Assembly (NCBI GenBank): GCA_013306675.1
Contig: JABLUY010000312.1
Location: 1 to 36,172, forward strand
Length of the DNA stretch: 36,172 bases
Source of the DNA: Thraustochytrium sp. TN22
Lineage: Eukaryota; Sar; Bigyra; Thraustochytrida; Thraustochytriidae
Reading direction: 5' to 3'
The notes under the pieces: model-generated
The model's database searches: none
Seen by the model: only the letters and a program-made list of their open reading frames with translations
Told to the model about the DNA's origin: nothing
Program-made: the position numbers and the translations under genes
Shown here: positions 210 through 35,264 of the stretch, piece by piece
Position numbering within the stretch: the first letter of the stretch is position 1
Layout: every line of letters starts with the position of its first letter

Positions 210-3200
210 ATGTACAGATACCAGGAGAGACGCGTGATCGGGCGCGGGAACTACGGGACGGCGCTGCTGGTGCGGGACCGGCGGTCGGGCGCGAAGCTGG
301 TGGTGAAGAAGATCCCGTTGAGCTCGCTCTCGGAGAAGGAGCGGCGCGACGCGGAGAGCGAGTGCAAGCTGCTCGCCAAGTTGCACCACCCCAACATCGT
401 GGAGTACATTGACAGCTTTCTGGAGGAGGAATCTCTGCACCTGGTGACGCAGTACTGTGAGCAGGGTGACCTGGCGCGGCTCATCAAACACTACAAACGG
501 CGCGGCAAGCACTTCTCGGAGCGGCAGATCGTGGACTGGTTCATCCAGATCGCCATGGCCGTGGACTACATCCACAGTTTGAACGTGATGCACCGCGATC
601 TCAAGACCGGCAACGTCTTTTTGACCAAAACCAATGTCATCAAACTCGGCGACTTTGGCATCGCCAAGGTTCTCGATTCTACGCTCGAGCAGGCGCACAC
701 CGTCGTCGGCACGCCCTACTACATGTCGCCGGAGGTCTGCGAGAATAAGCAGTACGACAAGAAGTCCGACCTCTGGGCCATGGGCTGTATCCTCTACGAG
801 CTCTGCACGCTCAACCACGCCTTTGACGCGTCCAACCTGCTCGGCCTTGTATTCAAAATCGTCCAGGAGAGCTATCCGCCCATCCCAGACATGTACAGCG
901 CGGACCTGCGCGAGCTCGTGGCGCAACTGCTCAGCAAGGACCCCAGCCGCCGGCCTTCGTGCAGAAAGATCTTCCGCCTTCCCTTCATCCGGCGCCGTCT
1001 CGAGGAGCTCGCCACGTCCGCCTCGCTTGGCAACGCGCCTGCGGCTGACGCCGCGCACCGCGGTCATGAGCCGGCTGACGCTGCCATCGCGGAGGCGCAG
1101 GTCAGCATGCACAGCCTCTCGCTGTCTACCGTGGGTGCTGGCGTGGGCGCCGGCGCAACGACCACGGACCGAGACCCTCGAGACGACGCTCGACGTCATC
1201 ACCATCACCAACAGCAGCACCACAAGCAGCATCGACCCGCGAGCGGCGTCCCATCGACGGCGCCCCATGCGCCCGCCGCACCCGCTACCGCCTTAGAGCA
1301 CAGCCAGCCGCGGCGCAACTCGCAGCGTAGCGGCCCGGCACGCTGGAAGGCAACGCCCATGCAGCGTAATTCCGAGTCGGATTCGCTCGTGCGGCCCTCG
1401 CGGCGCACCAGCAGCAGTAACAGCAGCAGTAACAACAGCAGCGGCGGCGGCGGCGGCGCCCAGATCAAGCAACCGCAGCATTCGCGACCAGACCGCTCCA
1501 GCTCGCGCACGCGACGCGACCGCATCGGCGACAGCAGCACGCACCTACATAGCGTCGTCGTCGGCGCCGCCGCTGGCGACGACGAAGAGGGCACCTACGA
1601 CATGGAAGACGAAGACGGCAATGACGACAACGACGACGACGACGAGGAGGAGGAGGAGGAGGAGGAGGTGGGCGACGACGACGACGACGACGTCGACGAC
1701 GACGACGACGATGATGATGATGCCGACGATGACGACAACTACAACATCTACGGCGGCGCGCCCCCCGTAAATGGGTTGACTCTCTCGTCGCGACGGACCA
1801 AGAGCTTGCACGCCATGCTCCCCTCGGTGAACCGAGAGAGCGAGAGCGAGCTGTCCAACCCGCCGACGCCGCCGACGCCGACGTCAACGCCCGGTGCCGA
1901 GAACCCCGCGCCGCTGGCCCTGGACGCGACCACGATCGCCACCCCAGAGAGCCGCGGTGCACGCGGTAGTAGCAGCAGCGAGCCTGGGATGATGACGCCG
2001 CAAGACCTGGCAAAGGAGCGCAAACAAGCCGAGCTTCGCAAGCGCGAGGAGGAGCTGCGCGCCGCCACCTTGAGCAACCTAGAGGTGCGCCGCGTGGCAA
2101 AGCGGCGCTCCAAGGAGTTCTTCATGCCGAGCGCCGAGAACTACCTTGCGGCAGACGCCGGCGCCGAAAGAGCTGACGGGACCGGGGCCGCCGACATGCA
2201 GGGTCGAGCGATCGCCTCGACCGTGACGCACGCGGCGGCCGGCGCCGAGACGCCGGCAAGTGCCGTGGAGAAAGAGAGCAAAACGCCCGACCTGTACAGC
2301 TCCTCCGAATACGGCGACGCGCTTCCCGCAGCACCTGCTGCACGGAGGCCCAGCGTTTCGAGCCAGCCACCGGTGCAGTCCGCCCACAGCAGCGGAGAGT
2401 GGGAAAGTGGTCTCGCAGGGTCCTCCGTGCTTCTCGCCGACCTTGCCGGGATTGGTGCTTCACAACAGGTGCTCGAGACCGCCTCGCGCGCCGCAAAGGG
2501 GCGCAGCGGGAGCGCTGCCGAGACATCACGCCAGCAGCTGCAGCGGCGGAGGGCACGCCAGCCGCACCAGCAGCACCAGCAGCACGTGAACCACCACCAC
2601 CGGTTCCTGTCGTCCCGGCCCCGGAGTAGCTCAACAAACAGCGGCGGGGGCGCCGCTGGCGCTGGCGCTGGCGCTGGCGCGAGCGCTCCGTCCGTGCGAC
2701 GCCGCACCCTGCCGACGCCGAAGCAGCACAGCGCCGCTTTGGAGGACGCGTCGGCGCTGTCGGCAGAATCTGTACCTTACCATCTCATCGACGAGCGCCC
2801 AATCAAGTCGAGCGGTCGCTACGATGTGGATGAGTGGAGCGCGGCGCGCCATCTTCCGCCGCGCTCCCTTGTCATTAGGCCCTCGTCCAATGAGTCCTTG
2901 GCCAGCGCCGACCAGAGTGACCTCGATACGGATGACAGCGACATGGCGCTTGCCTCGACCATGCTTGCTCAGAGCGGCCCGGTTTCGCCTCCGCCGCCGC
3001 CTCCGCCGCCGGCCCTGCCCGAGGACCACCCCGCGGAGCAGCTGCGGCGCGCTCAGGAGCGTTTCCAGGAGACGCTGGACGAGAAGGACGCCGCGCGTGT
3101 CCTGGCCGAGTGCAGGCGTCATGCAGAACGCCGCGACGCGTGGGCCTCCCGCGCCCCGCCGCGGCCTGCTGCATGCAATGATCGACGTCGCTCCAGCGGC

Positions 3201-3509
3201 GCAAGCAGCACCGCCACGGCAGCGAGCGAATCCGGCGCGGACTCTTCGGTGCGTCGTTCGGGCCCCGATTGGCACGCTATTGCCGACAAGCAGCGCGACC
3301 GTCTCGTCAACCTGCTGGGCCCAGACCGCTTCCAAGAGGTTTATGCGTTTCTCAAGAAGTCACATGACGCCAAGAATGGCGCTTCCTCGCAGGGCGCTTC
3401 TTCCGTTGAGAATCAGCGCCACCTGCGCCAGGTCGTTGGCAAGGACCAGCTCAGTCTGTGTTTCGACGTTGACCAGCTCCTTTACATCGAGGAGACCTAC
3501 CTCGCGTAA
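210..3509 (+). CDS. NIMA-related (NEK-family) serine/threonine protein kinase
   Basis: The 1099-residue protein has its kinase domain at residues 4-263. Visible motifs are the glycine loop GRGNYG (11-16), the ATP-anchoring lysine in VVK (K33), HRDLK (128-132), DFG (148-150), the activation-segment end GTPYYMSPE (167-175) and SDLWAMGCILYEL (186-198). HRDLKTxN and YYMSPE are typical of NEK kinases, which act on cilia, centrosomes and mitosis. The usual Q of HRDLKTQN is G here. The long tail is low complexity, with His/Gln and Ser/Asn runs and a Glu/Asp tract at about 467-509. A conserved-looking block follows at about 1019-1099 (LVNLLGPDRFQEVYAFLKK), recalling the C-terminal segment of some NEK1/NEK5-like kinases. 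The ATG is chosen because the kinase domain begins four residues later. Family assignment is firm; the subfamily is inferred. Confidence 0.95.
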   Translation: MYRYQERRVIGRGNYGTALLVRDRRSGAKLVVKKIPLSSLSEKERRDAESECKLLAKLHHPNIVEYIDSFLEEESLHLVTQYCEQGDLARLIKHYKRRGKHFSERQIVDWFIQIAMAVDYIHSLNVMHRDLKTGNVFLTKTNVIKLGDFGIAKVLDSTLEQAHTVVGTPYYMSPEVCENKQYDKKSDLWAMGCILYELCTLNHAFDASNLLGLVFKIVQESYPPIPDMYSADLRELVAQLLSKDPSRRPSCRKIFRLPFIRRRLEELATSASLGNAPAADAAHRGHEPADAAIAEAQVSMHSLSLSTVGAGVGAGATTTDRDPRDDARRHHHHQQQHHKQHRPASGVPSTAPHAPAAPATALEHSQPRRNSQRSGPARWKATPMQRNSESDSLVRPSRRTSSSNSSSNNSSGGGGGAQIKQPQHSRPDRSSSRTRRDRIGDSSTHLHSVVVGAAAGDDEEGTYDMEDEDGNDDNDDDDEEEEEEEEVGDDDDDDVDDDDDDDDDADDDDNYNIYGGAPPVNGLTLSSRRTKSLHAMLPSVNRESESELSNPPTPPTPTSTPGAENPAPLALDATTIATPESRGARGSSSSEPGMMTPQDLAKERKQAELRKREEELRAATLSNLEVRRVAKRRSKEFFMPSAENYLAADAGAERADGTGAADMQGRAIASTVTHAAAGAETPASAVEKESKTPDLYSSSEYGDALPAAPAARRPSVSSQPPVQSAHSSGEWESGLAGSSVLLADLAGIGASQQVLETASRAAKGRSGSAAETSRQQLQRRRARQPHQQHQQHVNHHHRFLSSRPRSSSTNSGGGAAGAGAGAGASAPSVRRRTLPTPKQHSAALEDASALSAESVPYHLIDERPIKSSGRYDVDEWSAARHLPPRSLVIRPSSNESLASADQSDLDTDDSDMALASTMLAQSGPVSPPPPPPPPALPEDHPAEQLRRAQERFQETLDEKDAARVLAECRRHAERRDAWASRAPPRPAACNDRRRSSGASSTATAASESGADSSVRRSGPDWHAIADKQRDRLVNLLGPDRFQEVYAFLKKSHDAKNGASSQGASSVENQRHLRQVVGKDQLSLCFDVDQLLYIEETYLA
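1615..1736 (+). repeat. GAC/GAG/GAT codon run encoding an acidic tract
   Basis: A run of GAC, GAG and GAT codons inside the kinase gene encodes some 40 nearly continuous Asp/Glu residues. It probably forms a disordered acidic linker and is a likely site of length polymorphism. Confidence 0.9.
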
Positions 3510-3678
3510 ACAGTAAGTAAATAACTAATTGCCTGACTGACCAATAGCGTGAATGAGTCAAGTTACAGTTGTTGCTTGACGAAGCTAAAGCTTAGTTACA
3601 CAATTTCATCACGAAACGAGGAATGAGGTTCTCCCCCACCCTCTCTCTCTCTGGCGCATACTCTTCTCTCTCTCTCTC

Positions 3679-3733
<55 letters not shown>

Positions 3734-3798: not shown

Positions 3799-6700
3799 TT
3801 AGGCGGTCATGGCCGCGGAGCCCTCAGACCAGCCAGGCGCGACTTGGCCGAGGACAGAGAGGAACATGCGCTTAGCCTCCTCCTTGGGCACCTCGCGCAA
3901 AGCGTGCCAGACCTTGTACTTGGAAAAAGAGACCCAGTCATCGACGGCGGGCGCCTCGATGGCGCATTCGCCTTGCGTGGACTGCTTAAAGTAGCCGTAC
4001 ATGAGGAGCTTCTGCTCGTCGGAGGCAATATAACGAACGTGGCTGCTTGTAAGGATAGGCTTGGCGAAGCGCAGACCGACGACGAAGCGCTGATGCAGCT
4101 GCGCCCCGTCCAGCGAGGTGATGGCTGGGTCGGCCTCGCCCGCCCCCGAGGCGGCGAGCGCCTCGAGCCAGGCCAACTTGGTCTCGAGCGGCGCGTTCTG
4201 TACATCCTCGATGGTTTGGTCGTCGTTGGCCGAGTTCGCCTCGTCGACCGGGTCCAGCTGGCGGTCCGAGGAGCCCGAGGTGGAGAAAGCGCGGAGGCTA
4301 GCCTGCTTGTGCGCGCGGGACTTGAAGATGTGGTCGTGGGCGCCGGGGCGGCGCGTCTGCAGACCCGAGGCGCTCGACATCGTTCCGTGGTCGTCGACGA
4401 GCTGCATGCCGTCGTCCTCGTCCTCGTCGTCCTCGACAGCCGCTGCCGCGGCCGCAGCGTCCGCGTCCACCTCGGTCTGCGCCGTGGTGACCGTGATGGC
4501 GTCGCTGTCGACGGTGCGCACGGTTGCATGGATGGCCGCGGCGTGCTCGCCGCTGGCAAGGTCGTCGACCACGTCCTCGTCCTCCAGCTCATCCTCGTCC
4601 TCATCGTCGTCGTCACACTCGAAGGCCTTGGGGTCGTGGATGGACTCGTCGTCGGACTCGTCAGCGCGCATGAGGGCGTCCTCCCCGTCGTCCATGTCGG
4701 ACAGCGTGTCGACCGGGCGGCCCGCGTCACGCTCCTTGCGTGTGGCGTCCGTGTGCGAGAGCGAGCGGTTCTTGCCGGCGGCCGCGCCCGCGGCGCCGCC
4801 AGCCGGCAGAGCGGCGACGAGCTGCGCCATGGCGTCAGCCTGCTCAAGCGCGCAGGCGGAGGGCGAGGGCGCGGAGAGCTGATCGCGGTAGAGCGCGTCG
4901 ATCTCATTCTTGATGTCACGCACCCAGAGCTCGCGCTCCTGGTCGGAGCGCGCCTGCACGACGAAGGACTTGCGCGGGTGGCGGATCTCGAAGACGCGCG
5001 GCGAGGCGTCCTCGCGCACCTGCATCGTGTGCAGGTTGAGCGTCTGGTGCACGTGGAGCTTGCTGCCCTTGAGCGTTCGCTGCGACGCGTAAAGGAGGAG
5101 GTCCGAGAAGAGGAAGAAGTGGTAGCGGCGGAACTTGTTGTTGCGGCTGCGCTTGAGCAGGACGCCCTCGCGTACAAAGCGCCGACCGGCCTGCACGATG
5201 CCGGCATTGCCGTCGAAGCGCTTCTGCAGCTTGACCAGCTCCTCGCGCCACTGGCGCTCCACGATCATACCCTTCATGGACTCGGTCAGCTGGTGCACCT
5301 CGCCGACCACGTCAATCACGTTGTCGGCGTCGCACGAGGTGCTCATGACATCCGCGTACCACTTATCCTTGAGGTGCTCGCCCTTGACGACGCCGAGCGC
5401 ATTGGCCGCCTCAGCATCCCCGTTCGAGTAGAGGTAGTGCACCTTGGCGAGCAGCATGGCGAAGGCCTTACGCTCATCTTCCATGCCAAGAAAGAGCGCG
5501 ATGGAGATGCACTGCGCGAGGATATCGAGCGCGTGCGAGACCGCTTCGAGCGGGTAGATCTTGGGGCGCTCCAGGATCTTGGTCACGACCGAGAAGAAGT
5601 GCACCCAGACGATCTCGAACATGACGCGCACCGCCTCCTGGTTCACCGTGGTGCTGTGGCAGCGCCACTGCGTGGCGAAGGCCGTGACGAGCGTCTGCAT
5701 GGTGCCGACGGAGCTGGCCAGGCGGCGCTGGAAGAGCGCGTTGGCCGTCTGGCGCGCCAGCACGGGCTCCGCGGTGCGCGCGCGCAGATGGGCCAGGTGC
5801 GCGGCCTCGGCGTCGTCGGCGCTGGACGCAAGGCCGCTGCCGCCGAGACCGGCGGCGGCGTGCGCATCCTCGCTGGACCACTCGCTCGTGGAGATCTCCG
5901 TGGACCCGCGGTCGCTGGACGAGTTCCCACTCACGCTGCCAGAGGACCCAGCGCCGGCGTGCGGGGGCGTGCGGGGTACGGGCGAGGACGGCGATGGCGT
6001 CGACGCGCTCGAGGCCGCGCGTTCACGCTCGCGGTCGCGGCCCGTTGGCGTGGGCCGCGCCAGGAGTTCGGCCTCGTCTTCCTCAGAAGCGAACTTGATC
6101 TCCTTGCGCTGGATCGACTTGTAAAGCCGAATGCCAAATTCGTGCGAGATGCGGTCGCCGTTCTCGATGAGCGTGATCTGCTTGAGGAACTGCTCCTGAG
6201 TCATGCGCTTCTTCTTGTTCACATTCGGGTTGTGCAGATCCGTGTTGAGCATGATGGTGGTGAAGGCAAGGAGCATGACCATGTCCTGGTCCTCCTTGGC
6301 GAATTCGTCCTGATTCTGCTCCACGAACCACGCCGCGAAGGCCTCCATGAGCGCCTCCACCTGCTGTCCCTCGCCGGGGAGGAAGAAGTGGCCTTTTTCC
6401 AGGTAGAGCCGCAGGCACTGCTCAAAGCTCTTGCCGGCGAAGGGCAGCACGCTGACGAAGGCAAGGCGGATCGGGTTCATCTTGTCGTCGTCAGACCGTG
6501 TGCCTAGATACGAGCCAACGTTGCGCTCGCCGAGCTCACGGTGGTAGAGGTGCAGGAAGGAGGCGATGTGCGCGGGCGTCGTGTCGAGCAGGCCGGCGTT
6601 GTTGAGAAACTTGATCGCCTTGCCCGCGCTCCCGCCCTTGTGCGAGAGGCGGAAGGCGGTCTCGAGCGCCCGGCTCGCGCCGCGGCGCGCGTGCTGGCGG

Positions 6701-9519
6701 GCGCGGACATACGAGCCTGCGCCGTCGGCGGCGTCGACGCCGTCGGTGGCAGCACCGCTGCTGCCGCCGCCCAGCAGGTTACGGGTCGACGACGAGGTAT
6801 CGAGCGCCTGGCCAGACTGCGCGGAGCGTTCGCGCAGGTTGCTGTCCACCTCGATGAGGCGAAACGTCCCGCTCATGTCGGTGAGCGAGCGCAGCAGCGT
6901 CACGAGCGAGGCAAGGGCGTCGAACTGCATCTCCTTGTTGATGCGGCGGTGGTGCGCCTCAGGCTCAAACATGTAAAAGCCCGGGTCGGTGAGCTGACAG
7001 AGCACCTCGACAAGGTGCTCAAAGGTGCTCCAGTTGGAGACGACCGGGTCATTCTCAAAGTTGAGGAAGAGCTGCACGAGGTCGCCCGGATGCATACCGA
7101 AGAGGGAGATCATGTGCGTGAGGCACTCGCGGCGCAGCTGCGGTGGCGTGAGCTTGTCTCGCAGCACGAAGAGCAAGACCTTCTCCAGCACGAGGCCAAA
7201 CTCCACCTTTAGGTGCTGGCGCAGGTTCTTCCAGAGCTCGGCCAGCACGGGCAGAACGAGGTCGAGGCGCTTCATGTTGGTGGCATTGTAGATGATGGCC
7301 TGGAAGGTGAACTTGCGTACTTGGTAGGCGAAGATGTGACCGGCGAAGAAGCCCTCCTCGGCGGGGCCAACGCAGCTGAGAAACTCGCGCAGCAGCTGCA
7401 TGTGCGCCACCTTGAGGTTCAGCTCGGCGTTGAAGAGGCGGCCCTTGCGCAGCGGCGCCGTGAGCAGCATTGCGCTGGCCTGGCTGAGCCAGACGAGCGT
7501 CATGACGGCATTCTCGGCGGGCGCCGACCCAAGTCGCAGGCGCTGGCACAACAGCTCGTGCAGCTCACGCGTGAAGCCGGAGTCTTCCGCGGTGAACTTG
7601 GCGAGCCGCCGCGAGGCCGCCTCGGTCACCTCCATGGCGTCGCCGATTGTGCAGGCGGCTTCCACGACGCGCTCCACGATGACCTTGCGCAGAAAGTCCT
7701 CCATGGAGCCATCCTCATCCGCATCGGAGGCCTTGGACTCTACTGTCGTGCCCGCCGCTTCCTCACTCTGTTGCCAATCTTGGTTCTCGTCAGCGTCACC
7801 GTCAGCGTCAGCGTCACCGCCGTTGTCGTTCTCCTCGTCAAGCTGGCGTTGACCGTCACAGACCGCCAGAGTCTGCGGCTGGCTGGCGCGGTGCACCAGG
7901 CTGTCAAAGATCATGGCGGGGCAGCGCAACAAGAAATTCATGTCCTCGAGCGTGACAGCACTGAGGCCGTCCAGGAGGGCGTCCGCGAGGTCGGTGGAAC
8001 CGCCAGGAGCCGGTGCGCCCCCCGTCGTCGCAGCCGCGGCGGCTGCCGCCGCGGCGGTAGCGGAGCCTGTGGAGGCACGTTCGTCGCCGGGTGCGACGGG
8101 CGCAGGGTCGTGCGCCGTGTAGCGGTGCGTGTCAGTCTGACGGTGCGGCGAAGTCCCAGTGTAGTGCTTCATGGGGTGCATGCGGAAGAAGCAGCTGCAG
8201 CGCGAGACGGCCCTCATGACAAAGTGCATGGCGCAGGGCGTGAGGCCAGCGTCGCTGCGCTCGACAACAGCGAGCACGAGCTTGAGCGCGGCGGGGAAGA
8301 CGATGTCGATGCCGAGCTCGGTAGCGTCGGCCGCGGCCTTGAGTACAATCTCCGCGAGACCGACAGCAGGCTGGCCGCCGCGGCCTGCCGCGCAGATGCG
8401 CGGCACGGCGCGCACGGCGCGCTCGAGCTTGCGCATGGCGAGCACGACGCCGGGCACGTCAGCGGCGTAGCAGGCGGTGAGCAGCGTGAAGAGCGCAACG
8501 AGCTCGTTCTGCGCAAGGCCGGAGCGCACCAGGTCAGCATGCGAGACGGAGGCCCGCCACGGACGAGGGCCGTCGAAGCGCGCCGACTTGGGCAGGAGCC
8601 GCAGAGGGCGCGTGAGCTCGCGCGTCATGTCGTAAGCGTGCAGCGGCGCGAGCAGCGAGGCGTCGCGCTTGTAGCAGAGGAAGCAGGCGCCCGTCTTGTG
8701 GCGTGGGTTGAGCGTGGCCGAGAAGCCGAGCGGCGTGCGCTCGAGCACGCCGTAGTCCTCCGGCACGAGCTCGCGATGCGCCGGGTGCACGGCGCAAATG
8801 TCAAGCAGCGGGGCGCCTTCGCCACGCGCCACGCAGAGAAATACGCGGCCCGATGCGCCCAGCCCCATGCTGAGGTCTGCAAGAAAAAGGCCGGCCACAT
8901 GCGTGCCTACGATCTCATAGCCGGGCGGCACAAACTCCTCCTTGCCCTCGTGGAAGATGATGATGCCGGTGATGGGCGAGAGGCCGGTCTCGGCGCGCCC
9001 GCGCTTGAAGCACAGGTGCAGCGACTTGCCGGCGTTGCCCTTGTTCAGGTCCACGGCCTGGTTTTTGCCCACCTGCATCACGCGCTGATAGCCGGGCGGG
9101 CACTTTTGACCGCGCACCAGCAGCTGCACGTCCACAATGGGGCCGGCCTCCTCGGCCTCGCGGTCCGCGTCCAGGAAGTTGCGCCCGGACCCATCCAGGG
9201 ACATGCCATGCAGCACGTTCAGCGATTTGCGCGAGCCGTTGGCCACGGACCGCTTCATATACGACATGCCCTCGCTAATGGACGTGCGCGGCGCGCGGCG
9301 CCGCATCGACCCGTGGCCTTGCGCCTGCGCCTGGTGCGGCGCGCCGCCCGTGCTGTCATGCGAGTGGTCCTCGCTGCTGCTTTCGTCCGACGTGTGCGAT
9401 GCCAGGCTGCCCGACCGCATCAGTTTGCTCCCGTAGCCGAGCCGCCGCACCGCCTGCACCTCATCGAAGAAGCCCGCCACCAGCTCGCGCAGCGCGTCGG
9501 CCCCGTCCGCCCCGCCCAT
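3799..9519 (-). CDS. Sec7-family Arf GEF with MABP, PH and acyl-CoA-binding domains
   Basis: This 1906-residue protein should load GTP on Arf GTPases at Golgi or endosomal membranes. Residues about 115-305 hold three blocks of the MABP beta-prism type (PPGY, VDLNKG, LHLCFKRG; then TPLGFSATLN, CFLCYKRD). A HUS-like box lies near 820 (LFLNFENDP). The Sec7 domain spans about 955-1145 with LPGEGQ carrying the catalytic glutamate (E1050) and MLNTDLHNPN. An HDS1-like stretch sits at about 1300-1360 (MFEIVW). A PH domain at about 1445-1550 ends in the usual Trp helix (ERELWVRDI). After an acidic linker, residues about 1800-1900 match an acyl-CoA-binding domain: MYGYFKQSTQGEC with K1845 at the place of bovine K32, then SKYKVW and PKEEAKRMF. 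Of four bovine ligand residues (Y28, K32, K54, Y73), three are kept and the last is Phe. The Sec7 and PH calls are firm, MABP and ACBP strong by eye. Confidence 0.93.
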   Translation of the reverse strand: MGGADGADALRELVAGFFDEVQAVRRLGYGSKLMRSGSLASHTSDESSSEDHSHDSTGGAPHQAQAQGHGSMRRRAPRTSISEGMSYMKRSVANGSRKSLNVLHGMSLDGSGRNFLDADREAEEAGPIVDVQLLVRGQKCPPGYQRVMQVGKNQAVDLNKGNAGKSLHLCFKRGRAETGLSPITGIIIFHEGKEEFVPPGYEIVGTHVAGLFLADLSMGLGASGRVFLCVARGEGAPLLDICAVHPAHRELVPEDYGVLERTPLGFSATLNPRHKTGACFLCYKRDASLLAPLHAYDMTRELTRPLRLLPKSARFDGPRPWRASVSHADLVRSGLAQNELVALFTLLTACYAADVPGVVLAMRKLERAVRAVPRICAAGRGGQPAVGLAEIVLKAAADATELGIDIVFPAALKLVLAVVERSDAGLTPCAMHFVMRAVSRCSCFFRMHPMKHYTGTSPHRQTDTHRYTAHDPAPVAPGDERASTGSATAAAAAAAAATTGGAPAPGGSTDLADALLDGLSAVTLEDMNFLLRCPAMIFDSLVHRASQPQTLAVCDGQRQLDEENDNGGDADADGDADENQDWQQSEEAAGTTVESKASDADEDGSMEDFLRKVIVERVVEAACTIGDAMEVTEAASRRLAKFTAEDSGFTRELHELLCQRLRLGSAPAENAVMTLVWLSQASAMLLTAPLRKGRLFNAELNLKVAHMQLLREFLSCVGPAEEGFFAGHIFAYQVRKFTFQAIIYNATNMKRLDLVLPVLAELWKNLRQHLKVEFGLVLEKVLLFVLRDKLTPPQLRRECLTHMISLFGMHPGDLVQLFLNFENDPVVSNWSTFEHLVEVLCQLTDPGFYMFEPEAHHRRINKEMQFDALASLVTLLRSLTDMSGTFRLIEVDSNLRERSAQSGQALDTSSSTRNLLGGGSSGAATDGVDAADGAGSYVRARQHARRGASRALETAFRLSHKGGSAGKAIKFLNNAGLLDTTPAHIASFLHLYHRELGERNVGSYLGTRSDDDKMNPIRLAFVSVLPFAGKSFEQCLRLYLEKGHFFLPGEGQQVEALMEAFAAWFVEQNQDEFAKEDQDMVMLLAFTTIMLNTDLHNPNVNKKKRMTQEQFLKQITLIENGDRISHEFGIRLYKSIQRKEIKFASEEDEAELLARPTPTGRDRERERAASSASTPSPSSPVPRTPPHAGAGSSGSVSGNSSSDRGSTEISTSEWSSEDAHAAAGLGGSGLASSADDAEAAHLAHLRARTAEPVLARQTANALFQRRLASSVGTMQTLVTAFATQWRCHSTTVNQEAVRVMFEIVWVHFFSVVTKILERPKIYPLEAVSHALDILAQCISIALFLGMEDERKAFAMLLAKVHYLYSNGDAEAANALGVVKGEHLKDKWYADVMSTSCDADNVIDVVGEVHQLTESMKGMIVERQWREELVKLQKRFDGNAGIVQAGRRFVREGVLLKRSRNNKFRRYHFFLFSDLLLYASQRTLKGSKLHVHQTLNLHTMQVREDASPRVFEIRHPRKSFVVQARSDQERELWVRDIKNEIDALYRDQLSAPSPSACALEQADAMAQLVAALPAGGAAGAAAGKNRSLSHTDATRKERDAGRPVDTLSDMDDGEDALMRADESDDESIHDPKAFECDDDDEDEDELEDEDVVDDLASGEHAAAIHATVRTVDSDAITVTTAQTEVDADAAAAAAAVEDDEDEDDGMQLVDDHGTMSSASGLQTRRPGAHDHIFKSRAHKQASLRAFSTSGSSDRQLDPVDEANSANDDQTIEDVQNAPLETKLAWLEALAASGAGEADPAITSLDGAQLHQRFVVGLRFAKPILTSSHVRYIASDEQKLLMYGYFKQSTQGECAIEAPAVDDWVSFSKYKVWHALREVPKEEAKRMFLSVLGQVAPGWSEGSAAMTA

Positions 9520-9740: not shown

Positions 9741-9766
9741 CAGGCAGGCAGGCAGGCAGGCAGGCA
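9741..9766. repeat. (CAGG)n microsatellite
   Basis: About six and a half perfect copies of a CAGG tetranucleotide lie about 230 bp upstream of the Arf-GEF start codon. Confidence 0.95.
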
Positions 9767-10150
9767 CTCAGACGGACAGCCTCGCCGCGAGGCGGGCGAC
9801 CAGGGCCAGCGCCGCGCCGCGCCGCGCCGCGCCGCGCCTGCGCCTACGCCTGCGCCTGCGCCTGCGCCGCGCCCGCGCCGCCGCGCCTGCGCCGCCGCCG
9901 ACCAACTGGGTTTGTTTGAATCCGCGCCTTGTTTGAACGCCTCCTGCTTCTCTCTCTCTGCCTCTCTCTTCTCTTTGTCTCTCTCTCTCTTTGGGACGCT
10001 CCCGCCTCGTCGCCGCGGCGCGGCAGTCCCGCTCGAGCAGGTGGTCGCCCTCCCCGGCGGCGTCCTTCTCGTCTGCGAGTCTGCGCGCTCTCCTCCTCGT
10101 CGCTCGCGTGCTGCGCTGTGCTGTGCTGTGCTCGAATTGGTCGCTCGCCT

Positions 10151-11698: not shown

Positions 11699-12122
11699 GA
11701 TTGATTGATCTCAACATCTCATTTGAGCTCATCAGCGCGGGCTGTGCAAAAGGCAAGGCGAGAAGCAGGCAGGAGGATAGCCATGGCACCTGCCGCAGGT
11801 AGCGAGCTCTTCACCCCGCACAAGGCCTAGGCGTAGGCCGCGGGCGTGAGCTTTTGGTGCCGCGCTTTGGGCGCGGAGCTTGGTGCAGCGCATACCGGGC
11901 CTCTCCTTGGAGCTAGTGGAGTGGAGCTCCGGCGCCTGCACAGTCCACCGCGTCAGCGCATCCAAACCAAAGAGCGCGCGCGGGTGGGCGCGAGCTGGCG
12001 GCGGCGGCGGGCGCGGGGCCGGCGGCGGCGGCGGGCGCGAAGCCGGAGGGCGGCACGAAGCCCGGTGCTGCACGAGGAGCTGGCTGCGAGGCCGAGGAGA
12101 TCATAAAGCATCAACGTCAAGG

Positions 12123-13949
12123 ATGGCGGGCCAAGGCGCGCGGCTGGCCGACAGGCTGCGCGCGCGCGCGGCAGAGGGCGAGGCGTTCTTCTCGTTTGAG
12201 TACTTCCCGCCGGTGAGCGAGAGCGGACGCAAGTCGCTGCAGACGCGCGTAGACCGCATGGCGGACATGCAGCCGCTGTTCGTGGACGTGACGGCGCGCG
12301 CCGGCAAGGTGGAGGAGACGCTGGCGCTGTGCCGCGACGTGCTGCGCTTTAGCAGCGTGGACGTGATGATGCACGTGACGTGCGGCGGCCTGGACCGCGC
12401 GGCGCTGGTGGACTTGCTGGGCCGCGCGCTGGAGGCCGGCGTGACGAACGTGCTGGCACTGCGTGGCGACGTGGCGCCGGGGCCCGGCGACCTTCAGCGC
12501 GCCGTGGACATTGTGCGCGTGGTGCGCGAGGAATTCGGGGACGCCTTCACGGTGGCGGTGGGCTGCTACCCGGAGGGCCTGGCGCCGCTTCTTGAGGGCG
12601 AGGACTGGGTGGCCAATCGCGCGCGGCACATCGAGTATCTGCGCGAGAAGGTTGACGCGGGCGCCAACTTTTGCATCACGCAGGCGGTCTTCGCCGCAGA
12701 CGTGTATGCGGCTTTTGTGAGCGACTGCCGCGCCGCCGGCATCTCGCGCGCCATCCCAATCCTGCCGGGCGTCATGCCGGTGCACAGCTTCAAGGGGCTG
12801 CACGCCCTAGCGCGCGAGCTGCACGTGACCGTGCCCTCGGCCTTTGAGGAGGCATTGGCGCCCATCAAGGACGACGCCAGCGCAGTGGTGGCCAAGGGCA
12901 TCGAGCTTGTCGGCGACTTGTGCGCGGACCTGCTGCGCGGCGAGGCGCCGGCTCCCGGTCTGCACTTTTACACCTTCAACCTGGAGTACTCGGTGCGGCA
13001 GATTGTGGAGCGGCGCCTGGCCCTGGATGCCAAGAATGAGCTGCCGTGGCGGCAGTCGGCGAACCCGCGCCGCGTCGAGGAGGACGTGCGGCCCATCTTC
13101 TGGGCGAACAGGCCGAAGAGCTACCTGCTGCGCACGGAGGGCTGGGAGCAGTTTCCGAGCGGCCGCTGGGGCGGCAGCAAGGGCGCTGGCGCCGAGAACA
13201 ACTTTGCGCGGCTCTCGGACGAGGAGGCGCTCTTCACGCGCGAGACCTTTTTCCAGCGCCAGGACATCATGCGCAAGGCCTGGGGCGAGGCGCCGCAGAC
13301 CGAGCAGGAGATTTTCGATGTCTTCGCGGGCTTTCTCGAAGGCAGCGTGCCGTTTTTGCCCTGGTGCGAAGAGAGCCTGCAGCTGGAGACGAGCGCCATT
13401 CGTGACCAGCTCGTTGCGCTCAATCGTGCCGGCTACCTGACCATCAACTCGCAGCCGCGCGTGAACGCGGCGCCATCCAGCTCCTCTGCCTTCGGCTGGG
13501 GCCCGGCCGGCGGCTACGTGTACCAAAAGGCCTACATTGAATTTTTCACGAGCCCTCGCCTCCTGCGCCGCCTCATGGACCTGCTCGAGTCGCCCGAGTT
13601 CTCCTCGCGCTCACTCGTCTACCATGCCGTGGACCACCGCGGGAACACCTACTCGAATGCGGCGCACATGAAGCCCTGCGCCGTCACCTGGGGGGTCTTT
13701 CCCGGCAAGGAGGTCATCCAGCCCACCGTCGTGGACCCAGACACCTTCTTGGTCTGGAAGGACGAGGCCTTCGCGCTCTGGGTTCGTGGCTGGGCCTCCA
13801 TTTACGAGGAGGACTCCCCCTCGTACAACCTTCTCTACGACATGCACGACGACTACTTCCTCGTCAACATCGTCGACAACGACTTTATCGACGGCGACAT
13901 TTTTGACCTCTTCAAGCGCCTCGTCAACCCTGACGGCCTCGCCGCCTGA
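12123..13949 (+). CDS. Methylenetetrahydrofolate reductase
   Basis: The 608-residue enzyme reduces 5,10-methylene-THF to 5-methyl-THF using an FAD cofactor and supplies methyl groups for methionine synthesis. The N-terminal catalytic barrel covers about residues 1-310, with FSFEYFPP (24-30) holding the catalytic glutamate (E26), MHVTCGG, LALRGD and NFCITQAVF. The C-terminal regulatory domain follows, recognised by FWANRPKSYLLRTEGWEQFP and GRWG (about 325-350). Its presence makes this the long eukaryotic form, as opposed to the roughly 300-residue bacterial one; in animals and fungi this domain binds S-adenosylmethionine. The frame stays open upstream to 11880, but the extension is Gly/Arg-rich with no clear targeting features. 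The ATG at 12123 lies in a good context (AAGGATGG) and gives the usual length. Confidence 0.96.
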   Translation: MAGQGARLADRLRARAAEGEAFFSFEYFPPVSESGRKSLQTRVDRMADMQPLFVDVTARAGKVEETLALCRDVLRFSSVDVMMHVTCGGLDRAALVDLLGRALEAGVTNVLALRGDVAPGPGDLQRAVDIVRVVREEFGDAFTVAVGCYPEGLAPLLEGEDWVANRARHIEYLREKVDAGANFCITQAVFAADVYAAFVSDCRAAGISRAIPILPGVMPVHSFKGLHALARELHVTVPSAFEEALAPIKDDASAVVAKGIELVGDLCADLLRGEAPAPGLHFYTFNLEYSVRQIVERRLALDAKNELPWRQSANPRRVEEDVRPIFWANRPKSYLLRTEGWEQFPSGRWGGSKGAGAENNFARLSDEEALFTRETFFQRQDIMRKAWGEAPQTEQEIFDVFAGFLEGSVPFLPWCEESLQLETSAIRDQLVALNRAGYLTINSQPRVNAAPSSSSAFGWGPAGGYVYQKAYIEFFTSPRLLRRLMDLLESPEFSSRSLVYHAVDHRGNTYSNAAHMKPCAVTWGVFPGKEVIQPTVVDPDTFLVWKDEAFALWVRGWASIYEEDSPSYNLLYDMHDDYFLVNIVDNDFIDGDIFDLFKRLVNPDGLAA

Positions 13950-14316: not shown

Positions 14317-14690
14317 ATGGACGAGCGCTTCACGTCGTTGCGCTCGCGGCAAGCGACGCGGCGCGCCAAGGTACCAGCGGCCGATACTCTGCCTGGGCAG
14401 GCGCTGCGGCCACGAGGGCAGCGACCTGTGTCCGGGGTGGACGCGCGCGCCGAGCCGGACCTGGCGTCGCTGGGCGCTGGCGCAGACGCGGTGCTGCCCA
14501 AGGCTGCGCTCGCCAGGCAGTATCACCAGCAACAGCCGTATTACCACGCGGCGTACCAGAGCGACGCATACTCCGCTGCGTGGGGGGACCACCAGCAGCA
14601 GGACTATTATGGCTATCACGATGTAGGGTACCAACAGCAGCAAGAGGAGGAGGATGCCTACTCGCAATACACGTACAGCAGCCATCACAT

Positions 14691-14753
<63 letters not shown>

Positions 14754-15552
14754 CAACAACAATAATAACAACAACATCGCCGACGAGTACAGGAGCGATT
14801 ACGAAGAAGAGTACAAGAGCCAGTACGGGGACGACTTGCACAGCCAGTACGGGGAAGCGTCGTACGGCGATGATCACAAGAGTGTCTACTCGTACGGCAG
14901 CCACGCGAATTATGGAGAGCACCAGTACCAGCACCAGCACCAGCACCAGCACCAGCATCAGCATCAGCATCGTCAGCATCATTATCATCATCATCAGCAG
15001 CAGCAGTCCCAGCCCGACGCGCAGTACGAACCAGCCACTTCATATTGCGGACATGTCCACGCAACTTCAAGCGGGTACATCAGCGCGGACTCGGCCAGGT
15101 ACGTGGACTACACGTATCCTGGCTACCAGCATCACCAAGAAGGCTACGGCCATGACGCCGGGACATACGCATACGTGGGATACGTGGGTGAGGCTTCCTC
15201 GCATGTGAGGCCTATCGCTGCCGACTCGACGGTGCCGAACATCTTCAGTCTCACGCGACACAACCGGTACGATGAGGTGGAGGAGCTGCTGGACGCCGGT
15301 GTGCCGGTGGACACGCGCGACCGCCAGGGCAACACCATCCTGTGCATCGCATGCCAGAACGGGCTCAAGCGTATCGCAAAGCTGGCGCTGCGGCGCGGCG
15401 CGGACATCAATGCGCAGAATCTGCGTGGCAACACGCCACTGCATTTTTGCTACATGTTCCAGTACGGCGACACGCTGGGCGCATACTTGCTGTCCAAGGG
15501 CGCAGACCCGACCTTGGCCAACGTGGACGGCAAGTTGTGCCACGAGACGTGA
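14317..15552 (+). CDS. Ankyrin-repeat protein with long Tyr/Gln/Asn/Ser/His-rich N-terminal region
   Basis: This 411-residue protein has two unlike halves. Residues about 67-300 are low complexity: Tyr scattered among Gln, Ser, Gly and His (DYYGYHDVGYQ), then Ser and Asn homopolymers, a Gln-His alternation and a His/Gln cluster. Residues about 306-408 hold three ankyrin repeats, with the signatures NIFSLTRHNRYDEVEELLDAG, GNTILCIACQNG and GNTPLHFCYMFQYGD. A last fragment reads LLSKGADPTLANVDGKLCHE. That ending (GADxTLxNxxGxxCYE) resembles a protist ankyrin family; this is from memory and not searched. No signal peptide or membrane segment is seen. A role in a condensate or in protein-protein contacts is inferred only from composition. 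Confidence 0.85.
14693..14776 (+). repeat. (AGC)n-(AAC)n in-frame codon repeat
   Basis: AGC codons pass into AAC/AAT codons inside the ankyrin gene and encode Ser then Asn homopolymers. It is a likely site of length variation. Confidence 0.95.
14929..14972 (+). repeat. (CACCAG)n in-frame repeat encoding Gln-His
   Basis: CAGCAC/CAGCAT hexamers give an alternating Gln-His stretch of about 16 residues, followed by a mixed His/Gln cluster up to about 15010. Confidence 0.95.
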
Positions 15553-25501: not shown

Positions 25502-28500
25502 ATGGTGGCGGAGCAGCAGCTGCAGGATGCGCTGCACGCGTACGAGGTGCTCGCGGAGGGCGGCGGCGCGACGCTGGGCGCCGCGGAGCTGGCTGCGCAG
25601 TGCGGCCAGGACGAGGAGCGCTGGGCGCGGTGCGGGCTTGAGCTGGTGTGGGCGGCCGTGCATGGCGGCCGCGCCGCCGACGAGGTGGTGAGCTGCATGG
25701 ACGGCATGGGGGCCCGGCTGACGCAGCGACTACCAGAGACGCTGTGGCTGGTCGGCGTCGAGGTGCGCAGCCTGGAGTCTGAGGAGGAGAAGATGCTCAG
25801 CCAGCAATGGAAACGGCTGGTGGCGCTGGTCAACGCTGTTGTGGACGGCGGCGTCGTGGACCGCCGCGCGCTGCTAGAACAGCTCGAGTTCGACCTCATC
25901 GGCGCCTGTGGCTGGGGCGACGCGCTCGCGCCCGACCGTCTCACAAAGGCGCTTGTCAAGGCCAACACCAACGCGCTCTACCGGCAGCGCAAGTACAACC
26001 TGCTGGCCGAAGAGAGCGAGGGCTTTGCCAAGCTTATTACCGAGCTGGAGACGCTCAATTCCGGAAACGCCGCCGCCGTGCTGGAGAACGTGCAGCGCCT
26101 CATCGGCTACTTTCGCCTCGACCCCAACCGCGTCTTCGACGTGCTCTTAGAGGTCTTTGAGCGCGACGCAAACAATGACGCCTTCGTCACGCTCATCGCG
26201 AGCTTCCGCGTCTCCAACCTTAAACAGCTGCTTGGCTTTAAGTTCCAGTCCTATCAGCCGGATCAGCCCTGGCCGGCGTCCAGCAGCAAGGACGACGCGG
26301 GCGCCGGTGACTCGGCGGCGCCAGCTAAGCCCACGCTGCCGGTCCCGCCGCCGCCGACTCCGCTCTCGCTGTACTACCTGACGGCCAAGCTCATCATGCG
26401 CGGCGACAAGCACCTGCTCACGCTCAAGGACGTGCTGCCGCACCTGTACCCGCCCGCCGAGGACGTGGAGACCATCGCGCGCGCGCGCGAACGCCGCATT
26501 CAGGACGCTGTTCGCAAGGTGGGCGTGGTCCGCCTCCGCACGCGCACCGCAGAGGAGGCCAAGGTCGAGGCCGAGGCCGAGGCCGAGGCCCGCAAGGTGC
26601 TCGCGGCGCAGACGCTCTTTGAGGATACGACGCACCAAAAGTTCGGCCTCGTTGCTGGTTTTTTGGCCGCCGGTTACTGGACCGAGGCCATCGAGCTGGC
26701 CTCCTCGCTCGACAAGGACGCCGCTCTGGACCACCCGGCCGTGCAGCGCGTCGTCTTTGCGAAGCTGCACAAGGCGCTCGACCCCGTGTATAGGTCGGAT
26801 GCGTGCCCGCTGGGCGCCCTCGCGGCCAAGCTGCGCCCCACGGATCGCGCATCTCACGCTCCCGCGTCCGCAAACAAACAGGAGGAGAAGGGCGACGGCC
26901 AAGAAAAAGAAGAAGAAGAAGAAGAAGAAGAAGAGAGAGACGAAGAAGGAGATGAAGTGGGCCACTTTCGGCCGGCGCGGACGCTGGACGACTTCTTTGA
27001 GCGTCTCAGCGACGTGGTGGTCACCATGGCGCACCGCCTGCATCAGGACGTGGCACTGCTTACCAAGGTGGTTCGCATCGCGCGCGCGCAGGCGAACGCG
27101 CCGGGTGATATGGACATGGCGCGCAAGCGCAAGCTTATCCGCATGATGAGCCACGCGCTCTTGCCGGCGGCCGCGCTGCTGCCGACGCCCAACCCGCCGC
27201 TCATGTTGGAGCTCTGGGAGGTCATCAAGGGCTTCTCCTTTGCCGTGCGCTTCGACCTGTACGAGGTGCAGCGATCCGACCTTTACGAGCGCGTGCCGGC
27301 GTTGCAGCTCGTGCAGGCGCAGACGGCACACGAGGCCAAGGGAGTGCTGAAACGTGTCGCCAATAACAAGGACGTCATGCGCCTGGTCTCGCGCGGCCTT
27401 GGCAAGATCTCGCACAACTGTCCCATCGTGACACTGTCCGCCATGATTAGCAATGTGCAGGTCTACGACAACCTCATCGGCATCATGGTGGACGCCATCA
27501 AGTACCTGTCGCCGCTTTCCTTTGACGTGCTGGCCTACCTCATCATCGCGCACCTGGGCAAGGACGAGCAGCTCAAGATTAAGGAGGATGGCCAGTCGCA
27601 CGCCAACTGGCTGCAGGCGCTCTGCAAGTTCGCCGGGTTCTTTTACGCCAAGTACCCCGAGATCGAGCTCTGCGGCCTGCTTGAGTACCTGTGCAGGCAG
27701 CTGGGCGACAAGCACAGCCTGGACCTGCTCGCGCTGGAAGAGCTCATCTCGCGCATGACTGGTCTGGACATCATTGAGAACGTCTCGGACGATACTATCG
27801 CGGCCATGGGCGGTGGCGAGAAGTTGCGCGCGCAGGTGCGTGCGTCCATGGGCACGGCCACTCAGGTCATCAAGAAGCGGCCCATGCAGGCGCTGCGCGA
27901 CGTGCTCAAGGACAACGGTCTGGTGATGCCGCTGCTCGTGCTCATCGCGCAGCAGCAGCAGACCACGCTCTACAGCGCTGTCGACAGCAACCTCAAGCTC
28001 ATCGGTCACAAGCACGACAAGTGCGTCTCGGTGCTTGAGCAGTTTGTCGAGTTCCTCACGGTCCAGGTCCCCGTCCAGACGTTGGCCGATGAGCACATGC
28101 TGCCGCTCACAGACTTGTGCGACCGCTTCTTTGTGGAGCCCGTTGTCGCCTTCCACATGGTGCGCCCGCTGCTCAGCGCAGCGCTGCACCAGGAGCTCTT
28201 TGCAAGCTCCGACAATGCCTTCAAGGCGACCTGCGCGGAGCCGCGCTGGGCGCTGCAGGGCGAGGCGCTGGCACGCTGGGCGCCCGCCAGCGACGAGCTC
28301 ATGGCCGCGGCGCGCGCTCAGATCGAGGCGCGCGCCAAGTGGAAGCTGCTCTCTCCCTCGCTCTACGTCGCCTTCTGGTCGCTCTCGCTTTACGACATTT
28401 CCGTGCCTCGCGCTCAGTATGACGAGGAGACGGACCGCCTGAAGGATCGCGTTGCGGGGCTCCAGGGCAACAACGCCGATCCGGCGCTTTCTGAGAAGAA

Positions 28501-29697
28501 GCGCAAGGTCGAGCTGCAGCGCTGCGAAGATGCCATCGCCACACTTCAGCGCGAGCTGCACCTTCAGAATGAAAATCGCGCGCTCGTGCTGCAGCACTTT
28601 GACGCCGGCATGCCGGCCTGGATCCCGTCCATGGAGGGCGCGACCACGCCGGCCAACCTGCAGGCGCTCAACGAGTTTCTGCACATTTGTGTGCTTCCGC
28701 GCGCGCTCTTCTCGCTCACGGACGCACTCTACTCGGCGCGCTTTTTGCGCCTCATGCATGAGCGCGGCGTGCCCAACTGCCCGACCGCTTTTCTCTACAA
28801 AAAGGCAGTCCAGTTCGTTGTCGCAAACATGGTCTGCGTCACGGAACGCGAGGCGGAGAATCTCGGCATCTTTCTCAAGAACCTCCTTGACCACCTCGCC
28901 ACCTGGACCAAGGACCGCAAGACCTACCAGTCCCAATTCGAGAGCAAGCCGGGCGCCTTTCGCACCTTCACGGACCCGGCCTCGTCCAAGGTCACCTTCG
29001 AGGAGTTCTCCGCGCTCGTGCGCAGGTTTCATGACAACGTTCTCACCATCTGCCTCGGCTCGCTTGGATCCACCTCCTACATGCACATCCGCACGGCGCT
29101 TCTCATCACCGGCAAGATTGGCGACTACTTCCCCACGCACGCCTCCGTGGCCATCAAGCTGCGTAACGTTGCCGCGCGCCTCGCAAAGACTGACGAACGC
29201 CAGGACATCGTCACCATGTCACGCCGCTACGAGACTTTTCTTGACACACGGATGCGCACCGAGAAGCTTGTTATGGACGTCAAGGAGGGTCTCCCCAAAC
29301 CCGCCAAGTCTGCCAAGCCCACCAAGCAGGCCGCCGCGGCAGAGGAGCCTGCCAAGCCCACGGCGGCGACCAAGGCGGCGCAGAACCGCGCTGGGCGCCG
29401 CAAGAATGTTCCGACTGGGGCGGACGGCAATGCGGCGCCGAGCTCTGAGGCAAAGACCGCTGCCCCGGTTGCGCCCCCGGCGCAGGGCAAGAAGCGCTCC
29501 CGTGAGGATGCCGCGCCTGCTGCAGGAAATGGGTCTCCGTCGCCTTCCGGCAAGCGCGCTCGCGTGGACCCCAAGTCGAAAGACCAGAAGCAGCCGCAGC
29601 CGAAGTCTCAGCAGCCGCAGCCGAAGCCTCAGCAGCCGAAGCCCAAACCTCAGCAGCAGCAACAGCAGCAGCAACAACAACAACAACAACAACCGCC

Positions 29698-29730
<33 letters not shown>

Positions 29731-30131
29731 GTCGTCCAAGCAGGACGACCGCAAGTCCGCCGAGCCACGGCGCCGCGACTCGCAATCCAGCTCGGATGCG
29801 GACCGACGCCGGCCCTTGCCGCAATTGGCCTCGGCCAGAGACCGTGACCGCGACCGCGACCGCGACCGCGACCGCGACCGCGACCGCGACCGTGATCGCG
29901 ACCGTAGTCGTGACCGCGACCGTGACCGTAGTTACTACTCTGGCCGCGATCGTGGCGGCGACGGTCGTGATGCTCGCGACGCGCGTGATGCTCGAGATCG
30001 CGACTCTCGCGATGCACGTGACCGGCCTCGCGACTGGCGGCCGAACGATCAAGGCAAGCGGCCCTCGCCTGCGAGGCGGCCTTCGCCCACGAGACCAGAA
30101 CCGAAGGGCGGTCCTCCTGGTGGTACTGGTC

Positions 30132-30172
<41 letters not shown>

Positions 30173-30262
30173 AATGGTGCCGGAGGGAACAACAACAGCA
30201 ACAATGGCGGCGGCGGCGGCGGTGGTGGTGGTGGACGTCGTCGGCGTGGAAGTCGCCGTTAA
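25502..30262 (+). CDS. THOC2: THO complex subunit 2 (THOC2/Tho2)
   Basis: This 1586-residue protein is the scaffold of the THO/TREX complex, which couples nuclear transcription to mRNA packaging and export. The N-terminal THO2 signature is at about residues 150-180 (LVKANTNALYRQRKYNLLAEESEGFAKLI). The central conserved core is at about 632-690 (GKISHNCPIVTLSAMISNVQVYDNLIG, then IKYLSPLSFDVLAYLIIAHL). The Tho2 C-terminal helical domain includes LYVAFWSLSLYDISVP (about 952-967). A Lys/Glu insert lies near 465-480. The tail from about 1270 is disordered: Lys/Ala-rich, Gln/Pro-rich, an Arg-Asp dipeptide run at about 1447-1476, and Gly runs ending in RRRRGSRR. Length is close to that of the human protein. 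Convergent with ARFRP1. Confidence 0.96.
29650..29730 (+). repeat. CAG/CAA codon repeat in the THO2 tail
   Basis: Mixed CAG and CAA codons encode about 24 Gln interrupted by a Pro pair. The mixture of synonymous codons argues for selection on the protein sequence as well as slippage. Confidence 0.9.
29840..29930 (+). repeat. (CGCGAC)n repeat encoding Arg-Asp dipeptides
   Basis: A CGCGAC hexamer run encodes about a dozen RD dipeptides, with RS and RDRS units after it. Similar mixed-charge RD stretches occur in U1-70K-type splicing proteins (family knowledge). Confidence 0.9.
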
Positions 30263-35095: not shown

Positions 35096-35131
<36 letters not shown>

Positions 35132-35264
35132 GCCGCCGCTGCTCGGCCGCCTCTAGCTCCTGCTCGTGTGCCTGCGGCGCGAGCCCGTCCTCCTCCTCCT
35201 CCTCCTCCACCCCCTCGCCCTCCGCCGGCTGCAGCCGCTGCAGCGCGTCCTCGCCCTCCTCCAT
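32244..35264 (-). CDS. BED-type zinc finger protein with hAT-like dimerisation domain (probable domesticated transposase)
   Basis: This 1006-residue protein starts with acidic and Gln-rich stretches (residues 1-85, including repeated QHA units). A BED-like finger follows at about 145-215: a Trp, CALC (Cx2C), then NSHLNNNH (Hx4H) and EVWESL. A basic KRRR lies near 290. The middle is Ala/Leu-rich and shows no clear DDE-type catalytic site by eye. Residues about 810-830 include HLVAMLCDPVF, recalling the hAT segment around LDPRF. Residues about 891-941 read DPFLAS, LAFWRLHGSAFPILRRLACRFLAFP, which matches the hAT C-terminal dimerisation domain (W...FP.L..lA...LA.P). BED plus hAT dimer domain is the layout of ZBED proteins. 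The frame is intact, no terminal inverted repeats or target duplication are evident, and this suggests a host gene. Confidence 0.78.

Follow-up and report, generated by a model that had tools for sequence, protein, structure and literature searches.

An Arf exchange factor core joined to MABP, PH and acyl-CoA-binding domains in a single coding frame

Introduction

Can a Sec7-type Arf exchange factor carry both an MABP domain and an acyl-CoA-binding (ACBP) domain within one polypeptide, and might such a combination tie Arf activation to the acyl-CoA pool? This question is raised by a long open frame in a 36,172-nucleotide stretch of genomic DNA, referred to below as the window. Based on the sequence alone, the original prediction had placed in this frame, in order, an MABP beta-prism, a HUS-like box, a Sec7 domain with its catalytic glutamate, an HDS1-like box, a PH domain and a C-terminal ACBP domain. 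All of these domains were found, in the same order and in one coding frame, with HDS1 as the weakest call, and the intact, unusual domain combination on a large-type Arf exchange factor is real. When Pfam profiles were used as the yardstick, the prediction stood for Sec7, PH and ACBP, all of which scored above their cut-offs, but not for the MABP-family profile (MVB12/DUF2464) or for HUS, both of which fell below theirs.

The coding frame and its surroundings

The frame occupies the minus strand (window 9519..3799), a detail absent from the original prediction, and runs uninterrupted from an ATG at 9519 to a stop at 3799, giving the 1906 residues that had been claimed. From stop to stop it measures 1926 codons and therefore opens 20 codons upstream of the ATG. 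Considering that the GC content of the window is 67% and that the mirror frame on the opposite strand contains 2 stops in 1907 codons (a near-open state that accounts for the long plus-strand ORFs), the frame might be suspected to be an artefact of assembly or composition, or its two ends to belong to separate genes or mRNAs. Several results make such an explanation exceedingly improbable. When the frame was divided into blocks of 100 codons, GC content ranged from 0.74 to 0.96 at third codon positions and from 0.29 to 0.60 at second positions in all full blocks (19/19), linkers included, and a coding signature is present over the entire length of the frame (3799..9519, minus strand). As a chance control, the 5721 bases were simulated 300 times with a first-order model and read in six frames; the median length of the longest open frame was 320 codons, and none exceeded 684. 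The short distance between the opening of the frame and its ATG argues in the same direction, as does the finding that the strand of the gene has a single splice donor of the consensus GTRAGT, at codon 1196, although other donors are possible. The 1906-residue frame is apparently a single exon.

The neighbourhood was surveyed by a Pfam scan of twelve other ORFs of the window. Matches were obtained for four, which seem to be unremarkable genes: that of a protein kinase (210-3509) on the opposite strand, convergent with the Arf exchange factor gene and ending about 290 bases from it, and those of MTHFR (11880-13949), an ankyrin protein (14317-15552) and THOC2 (25502-30262). The remaining eight, including a 1006-residue ORF at 32244-35264, had no Pfam match. 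A near-perfect TCTG tandem repeat of 16.8 copies (3667-3733) lies between the kinase gene and the Arf exchange factor gene, and additional short repeats are located upstream of the latter (9741-9991).

The Sec7 core and its flanking regions

The Sec7 Arf-exchange domain comprises residues 966-1141 (6097..6624, minus strand). It was recognized by Pfam with an E value of 5.4e-42 and 143.9 bits (cut-off 22), covering positions 17-183 of the 183-position profile, and its best PDB match is BIG1 (3ltl, 9.9e-29). The proposed catalytic glutamate was confirmed as E1050 within FFLPGEGQ (6370..6372, minus strand), aligned to the LPGE of BIG1 and BIG2, and the NTDLHNPN motif is also present.

For the regions surrounding Sec7, three paralogs of the same genome were used for alignment, namely C450 (DCB-HUS-Sec7-HDS, a BIG), C435 (GBF1-like) and C199 (HUS-Sec7). 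The HUS-like region (residues 696-846; 6982..7434, minus strand) scored 21.7 bits against Pfam HUS, under the cut-off of 27.3, and was upheld by profile comparison with the three paralogs (hhalign 95.1%, E 3e-8). Its box, at residues 820-824, is altered to NFEND, as compared with NYDCD or NFDCD in the paralogs and with the published form N(Y/F)DC(D/N) given in a passage of PMC553965. The HDS1-like region (residues 1296-1361; 5437..5634, minus strand) received weaker support (66.2% and E 5.6e-5 in hhalign against the paralogs); residues 967-1366 also fall within one alignment to the BIG paralog C450, at 30% identity (E 6e-21). A DCB domain gave no Pfam match at E values up to 1 and would lie beyond the hhalign alignment with the paralogs; a multiple alignment does set a region of the window protein opposite the paralog DCB, which proves nothing by itself. 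Similarly, neither the Pfam Sec7-like_HDS profile nor the GBF1-like repeat, both sought for HDS2 and HDS3, gave a match at E values up to 1, and the space after HDS1 is occupied by the PH domain, an acidic, hydrophobic-poor linker and the ACBP domain.

Since HUS- and HDS1-like regions are present, though divergent, the core resembles that of a large (BIG/GBF) Arf exchange factor. In a ten-row tree built from Sec7 alone, the domain sits without support on an end branch of 3.86 changes per site; because this tree is unable to place it, we infer BIG/GBF-type descent from the flanking regions. The length of this branch, together with a two-residue insert relative to BIG1 directly ahead of the FLPGE loop, also means that exchange activity is not assured, and with the altered HUS box these features would fit a protein whose Sec7 domain is catalytically weak or dead and which serves as a membrane scaffold rather than as an exchange factor. 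Given that the catalytic glutamate in its Pro-Gly-Glu loop and NTDLHNPN are intact and that the profile score and coverage are as given above, we consider a scaffold of this kind decidedly unlikely.

The PH domain and the acidic linker

The predicted PH domain was substantiated by Pfam (residues 1449-1540, 43.6 bits against a cut-off of 25.1), and comparison with known structures added a type to it that the original prediction had not mentioned. PDB matches of this part are FARP1 (4h6y, 4.7e-16, residues 1404-1554), FARP2 (2e-12) and FGD5 (1.7e-9), with the FARP1 match beginning 45 residues ahead of the PH domain. In these three structures, the segment preceding PH is the final portion of the RhoGEF (DH) domain. 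Matches to the PH part within the same genome include C228 (FYVE-RhoGEF-PH) and C151 (a RhoGEF protein), while the RhoGEF domain itself gave no Pfam match in the window protein at E values up to 1. As the FARP/FGD-type similarity starts before PH, a Dbl-type gene, rather than one of cytohesin type, seems to be the source of this domain. The Dbl-type tail and PH together span residues 1404-1540 (PH proper 1449-1540; 4900..5310, minus strand). They are followed by a linker of 255 residues (1546-1800; 4120..4884, minus strand), delimited by its composition (25% Asp+Glu) and by the coding signature.

The MABP domain

The three-block MABP beta-prism, predicted at about residues 115-305, was located by homology and predicted fold at residues 123-292 (8644..9153, minus strand). 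Its score of 18.1 bits against Pfam MVB12/DUF2464 lies under the cut-off of 22, so that a protein with an MABP domain is claimed here and membership of the MVB12 family is not. The region has relatives within the same genome and matches human MVB12B in a profile comparison, and the best matches of its predicted fold are the MABP domain of MVB12B and the C-terminal domains of MACPF proteins.

MABP proteins of the MVB12 and DENND4 types share the three-block beta-prism with the window protein; unlike DENND4, the latter has no DENN part and its MABP domain is joined to a Sec7 core. Two other frames of the genome contain related stretches. One is a DENN protein (C375; L030:909-7118, minus strand) with an N-terminal MABP-like stretch related to the MABP domain of the window, an arrangement resembling that of animal DENND4 but occurring in a protist genome. 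The other is a 2495-residue frame (C443; L028:916-8400) with RanBP2 zinc fingers and a ubiquitin hydrolase domain in two stretches, in which MABP-like blocks precede the final ubiquitin hydrolase stretch.

The acyl-CoA-binding domain

At the C terminus, the ACBP domain expected at about residues 1800-1900 was identified at residues 1805-1893 (3841..4107, minus strand) by three approaches. Pfam ACBP matched residues 1832-1888 with 44 bits (cut-off 28.3), the last 117 residues gave a best PDB ACBP match of 9.8e-11, and the predicted structure of the same 117 residues is a helical bundle (pLDDT 86.9) whose top 23 Foldseek matches are all ACBPs. In bovine ACBP numbering, we take Tyr28, Lys32, Lys54 and Tyr73 to be the acyl-CoA ligand residues. 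Alignment with human ACBP shows that the first three are kept as Y1841, K1845 and K1867, in agreement with the claim of three ligand residues out of four, and that Tyr73 is replaced by Phe (F1886).

ACBP domains elsewhere in the genome provide a context for this replacement. Tyr73 is present in all six of the other matches and the complete set of four ligand residues in 4/6, and the window domain has the lowest score among the seven found. Among these frames, a 983-residue one (C7; L023:1363-4311, minus strand) combines two ACBP domains with NAD_binding_4 (male sterility, fatty acyl-CoA reductase-like) and a short-chain dehydrogenase, and represents a second ACBP fusion in the same genome; another (C256; L022:2469-3977) joins ACBP with ankyrin repeats, an arrangement known elsewhere.

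The Phe at position 73 and the low score would be expected if the ACBP domain were inert or served the exchange factor as a structural or protein-binding module that has lost its regulatory acyl-CoA ligand, and a section of PMC6514682 presents ACBD3, itself an ACBP-domain protein, as a scaffold. Since Tyr to Phe is a conservative change, the other three ligand residues are retained and the predicted fold appears to preserve the full ACBP bundle, loss of the ligand is rated as unlikely, although it should be given some weight.

Genome-wide comparison and the probable host

The genome searched comprises 37.9 Mb in 453 contigs. Profile searches revealed at least 6 Sec7 loci and at least 7 ACBP matches in 6 loci, and among these the two coincide only at the window. 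The five remaining Sec7 loci detected lie on contigs with neither an ACBP match nor a match to the MABP piece, and Pfam scans of these five Sec7 frames identified no ACBP (for C450, 1771 residues of its 2074-residue frame were scanned). One of these five, a Sec7-like frame (C207; L019:4255-7962), covers only the first half of the profile (positions 4-90), which points either to interruption by an insert or to degeneration. In the open-access literature searched, no protein combining Sec7, ACBP and MABP is described, and the original statement to this effect holds within that literature; eukaryotic protein databases lay outside the scope of the search, and such a protein may sit unremarked in predicted proteomes.

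The original prediction had attached particular interest to the locus if its host were an oleaginous protist, and the genome offers support for this proviso. A 3044-residue frame matches omega_3_PfaA with 2539.7 bits summed over its pieces (cut-off 1010.1); in 14 control genomes, the same profile gave weak matches in 11/14 and none above the cut-off (0/14). Next to this PfaA-type PUFA synthase frame, the other strand carries a frame of 2083 residues (C124:26703-41142), and a separate frame of 5691 residues (C410) matches parts of the omega_3_PfaA family. Thraustochytrids, a group known for omega-3 oil, carry a PUFA synthase of this kind with its genes in this arrangement. The co-occurrence of a PfaA-type PUFA synthase and eukaryotic genes thus suggests that the host is probably an oleaginous thraustochytrid.

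Relationship to known exchange factors and ACBP proteins

The large exchange factors BIG1, BIG2, Sec7p, GBF1 and Gea1/2 share with the window protein the ordered HUS-like, Sec7 and HDS1-like regions and the catalytic glutamate. Compared with the BIG/GBF proteins, the window protein shows no detectable DCB, HDS2 or HDS3, carries in addition MABP, a PH domain that appears to be of Dbl type, and ACBP, and bears NFEND as its HUS box. In cytohesin, EFA6 and IQSEC/BRAG, Sec7 is followed by PH, as it is in the window protein; in the latter, however, an HDS1-like region stands between the two and the PH domain is apparently of the Dbl (FARP/FGD) type. ACBD3 (GCP60) is likewise a membrane-traffic protein with an ACBP domain, and to our knowledge it has no Sec7 domain. 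Sections of PMC6514682 describe ACBD3 as a Golgi protein that binds palmitoyl-CoA and contains a GOLD domain. A further parallel is found in alveolates, in which TBS (TBC-Sec7) is a lineage-specific Arf exchange factor with an added module, as presented in passages of PMC553965; both proteins are protist-specific fusions of extra modules to Sec7, TBS adding a RabGAP-type TBC domain and the window protein instead MABP, PH and ACBP.

Proposed function and implications

Taken as a whole, this anatomy makes it fairly probable, in our judgement, that the protein is a divergent, lineage-specific Arf exchange factor of the large type from a thraustochytrid-like protist. A HUS-Sec7-HDS1 core of presumed BIG/GBF-type descent would have shed HDS2 and HDS3 while acquiring MABP at the N terminus, a PH domain of Dbl type and, at the C terminus, an ACBP domain on a long acidic tether. 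MABP and PH would bring the protein to a membrane, at which Sec7 would load Arf with GTP, and the tethered ACBP domain would bind long-chain acyl-CoA, so that acyl-CoA supply could set where or how strongly the exchange factor acts. Alternatively, the exchange factor might deliver acyl-CoA to sites of membrane or lipid-droplet making. According to part of PMC10512945, the membrane association of GBF1 requires its HDS3, and replacement of the later HDS domains by PH and ACBP would therefore be expected to alter targeting.

Published observations bear on this proposal in both directions. Passages of PMC2586367 give a precedent for a link between Arf and lipid use: cultured cells overstore lipid when treated with BFA or when Arf1 or GBF1 is knocked down. 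Knockdown of BIG1 or BIG2, unlike that of GBF1, has no such effect, which counts against the proposed role. In vitro Golgi budding requires palmitoyl-CoA, as stated in a portion of PMC6582194; the same portion ascribes this old requirement to S-acylation of cargo and not to an exchange factor, which also counts against it. A tie between Arf activation and the acyl-CoA pool is plausible and compatible with the domain anatomy from which it is inferred.

In a stricter form of the same idea, long-chain (perhaps very-long-chain polyunsaturated) acyl-CoA on the ACBP domain would act as a metabolic gate that switches the PH-Sec7 unit on or off. The Tyr73 to Phe change, the divergence of Sec7 and the cargo-acylation reading offered in that part of PMC6582194 all speak against so direct a gate, and we hold it to be quite unlikely. 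If it did operate, coat assembly or lipid-droplet traffic in an oil-making protist would start only when acyl-CoA is plentiful.

The presence of Sec7 and ACBP in a single protein would turn an indirect link between acyl-CoA and Arf traffic into a direct biochemical question. In addition, it shows how extensively a single lineage can replace the regions of large Arf exchange factors that lie outside the catalytic domain.
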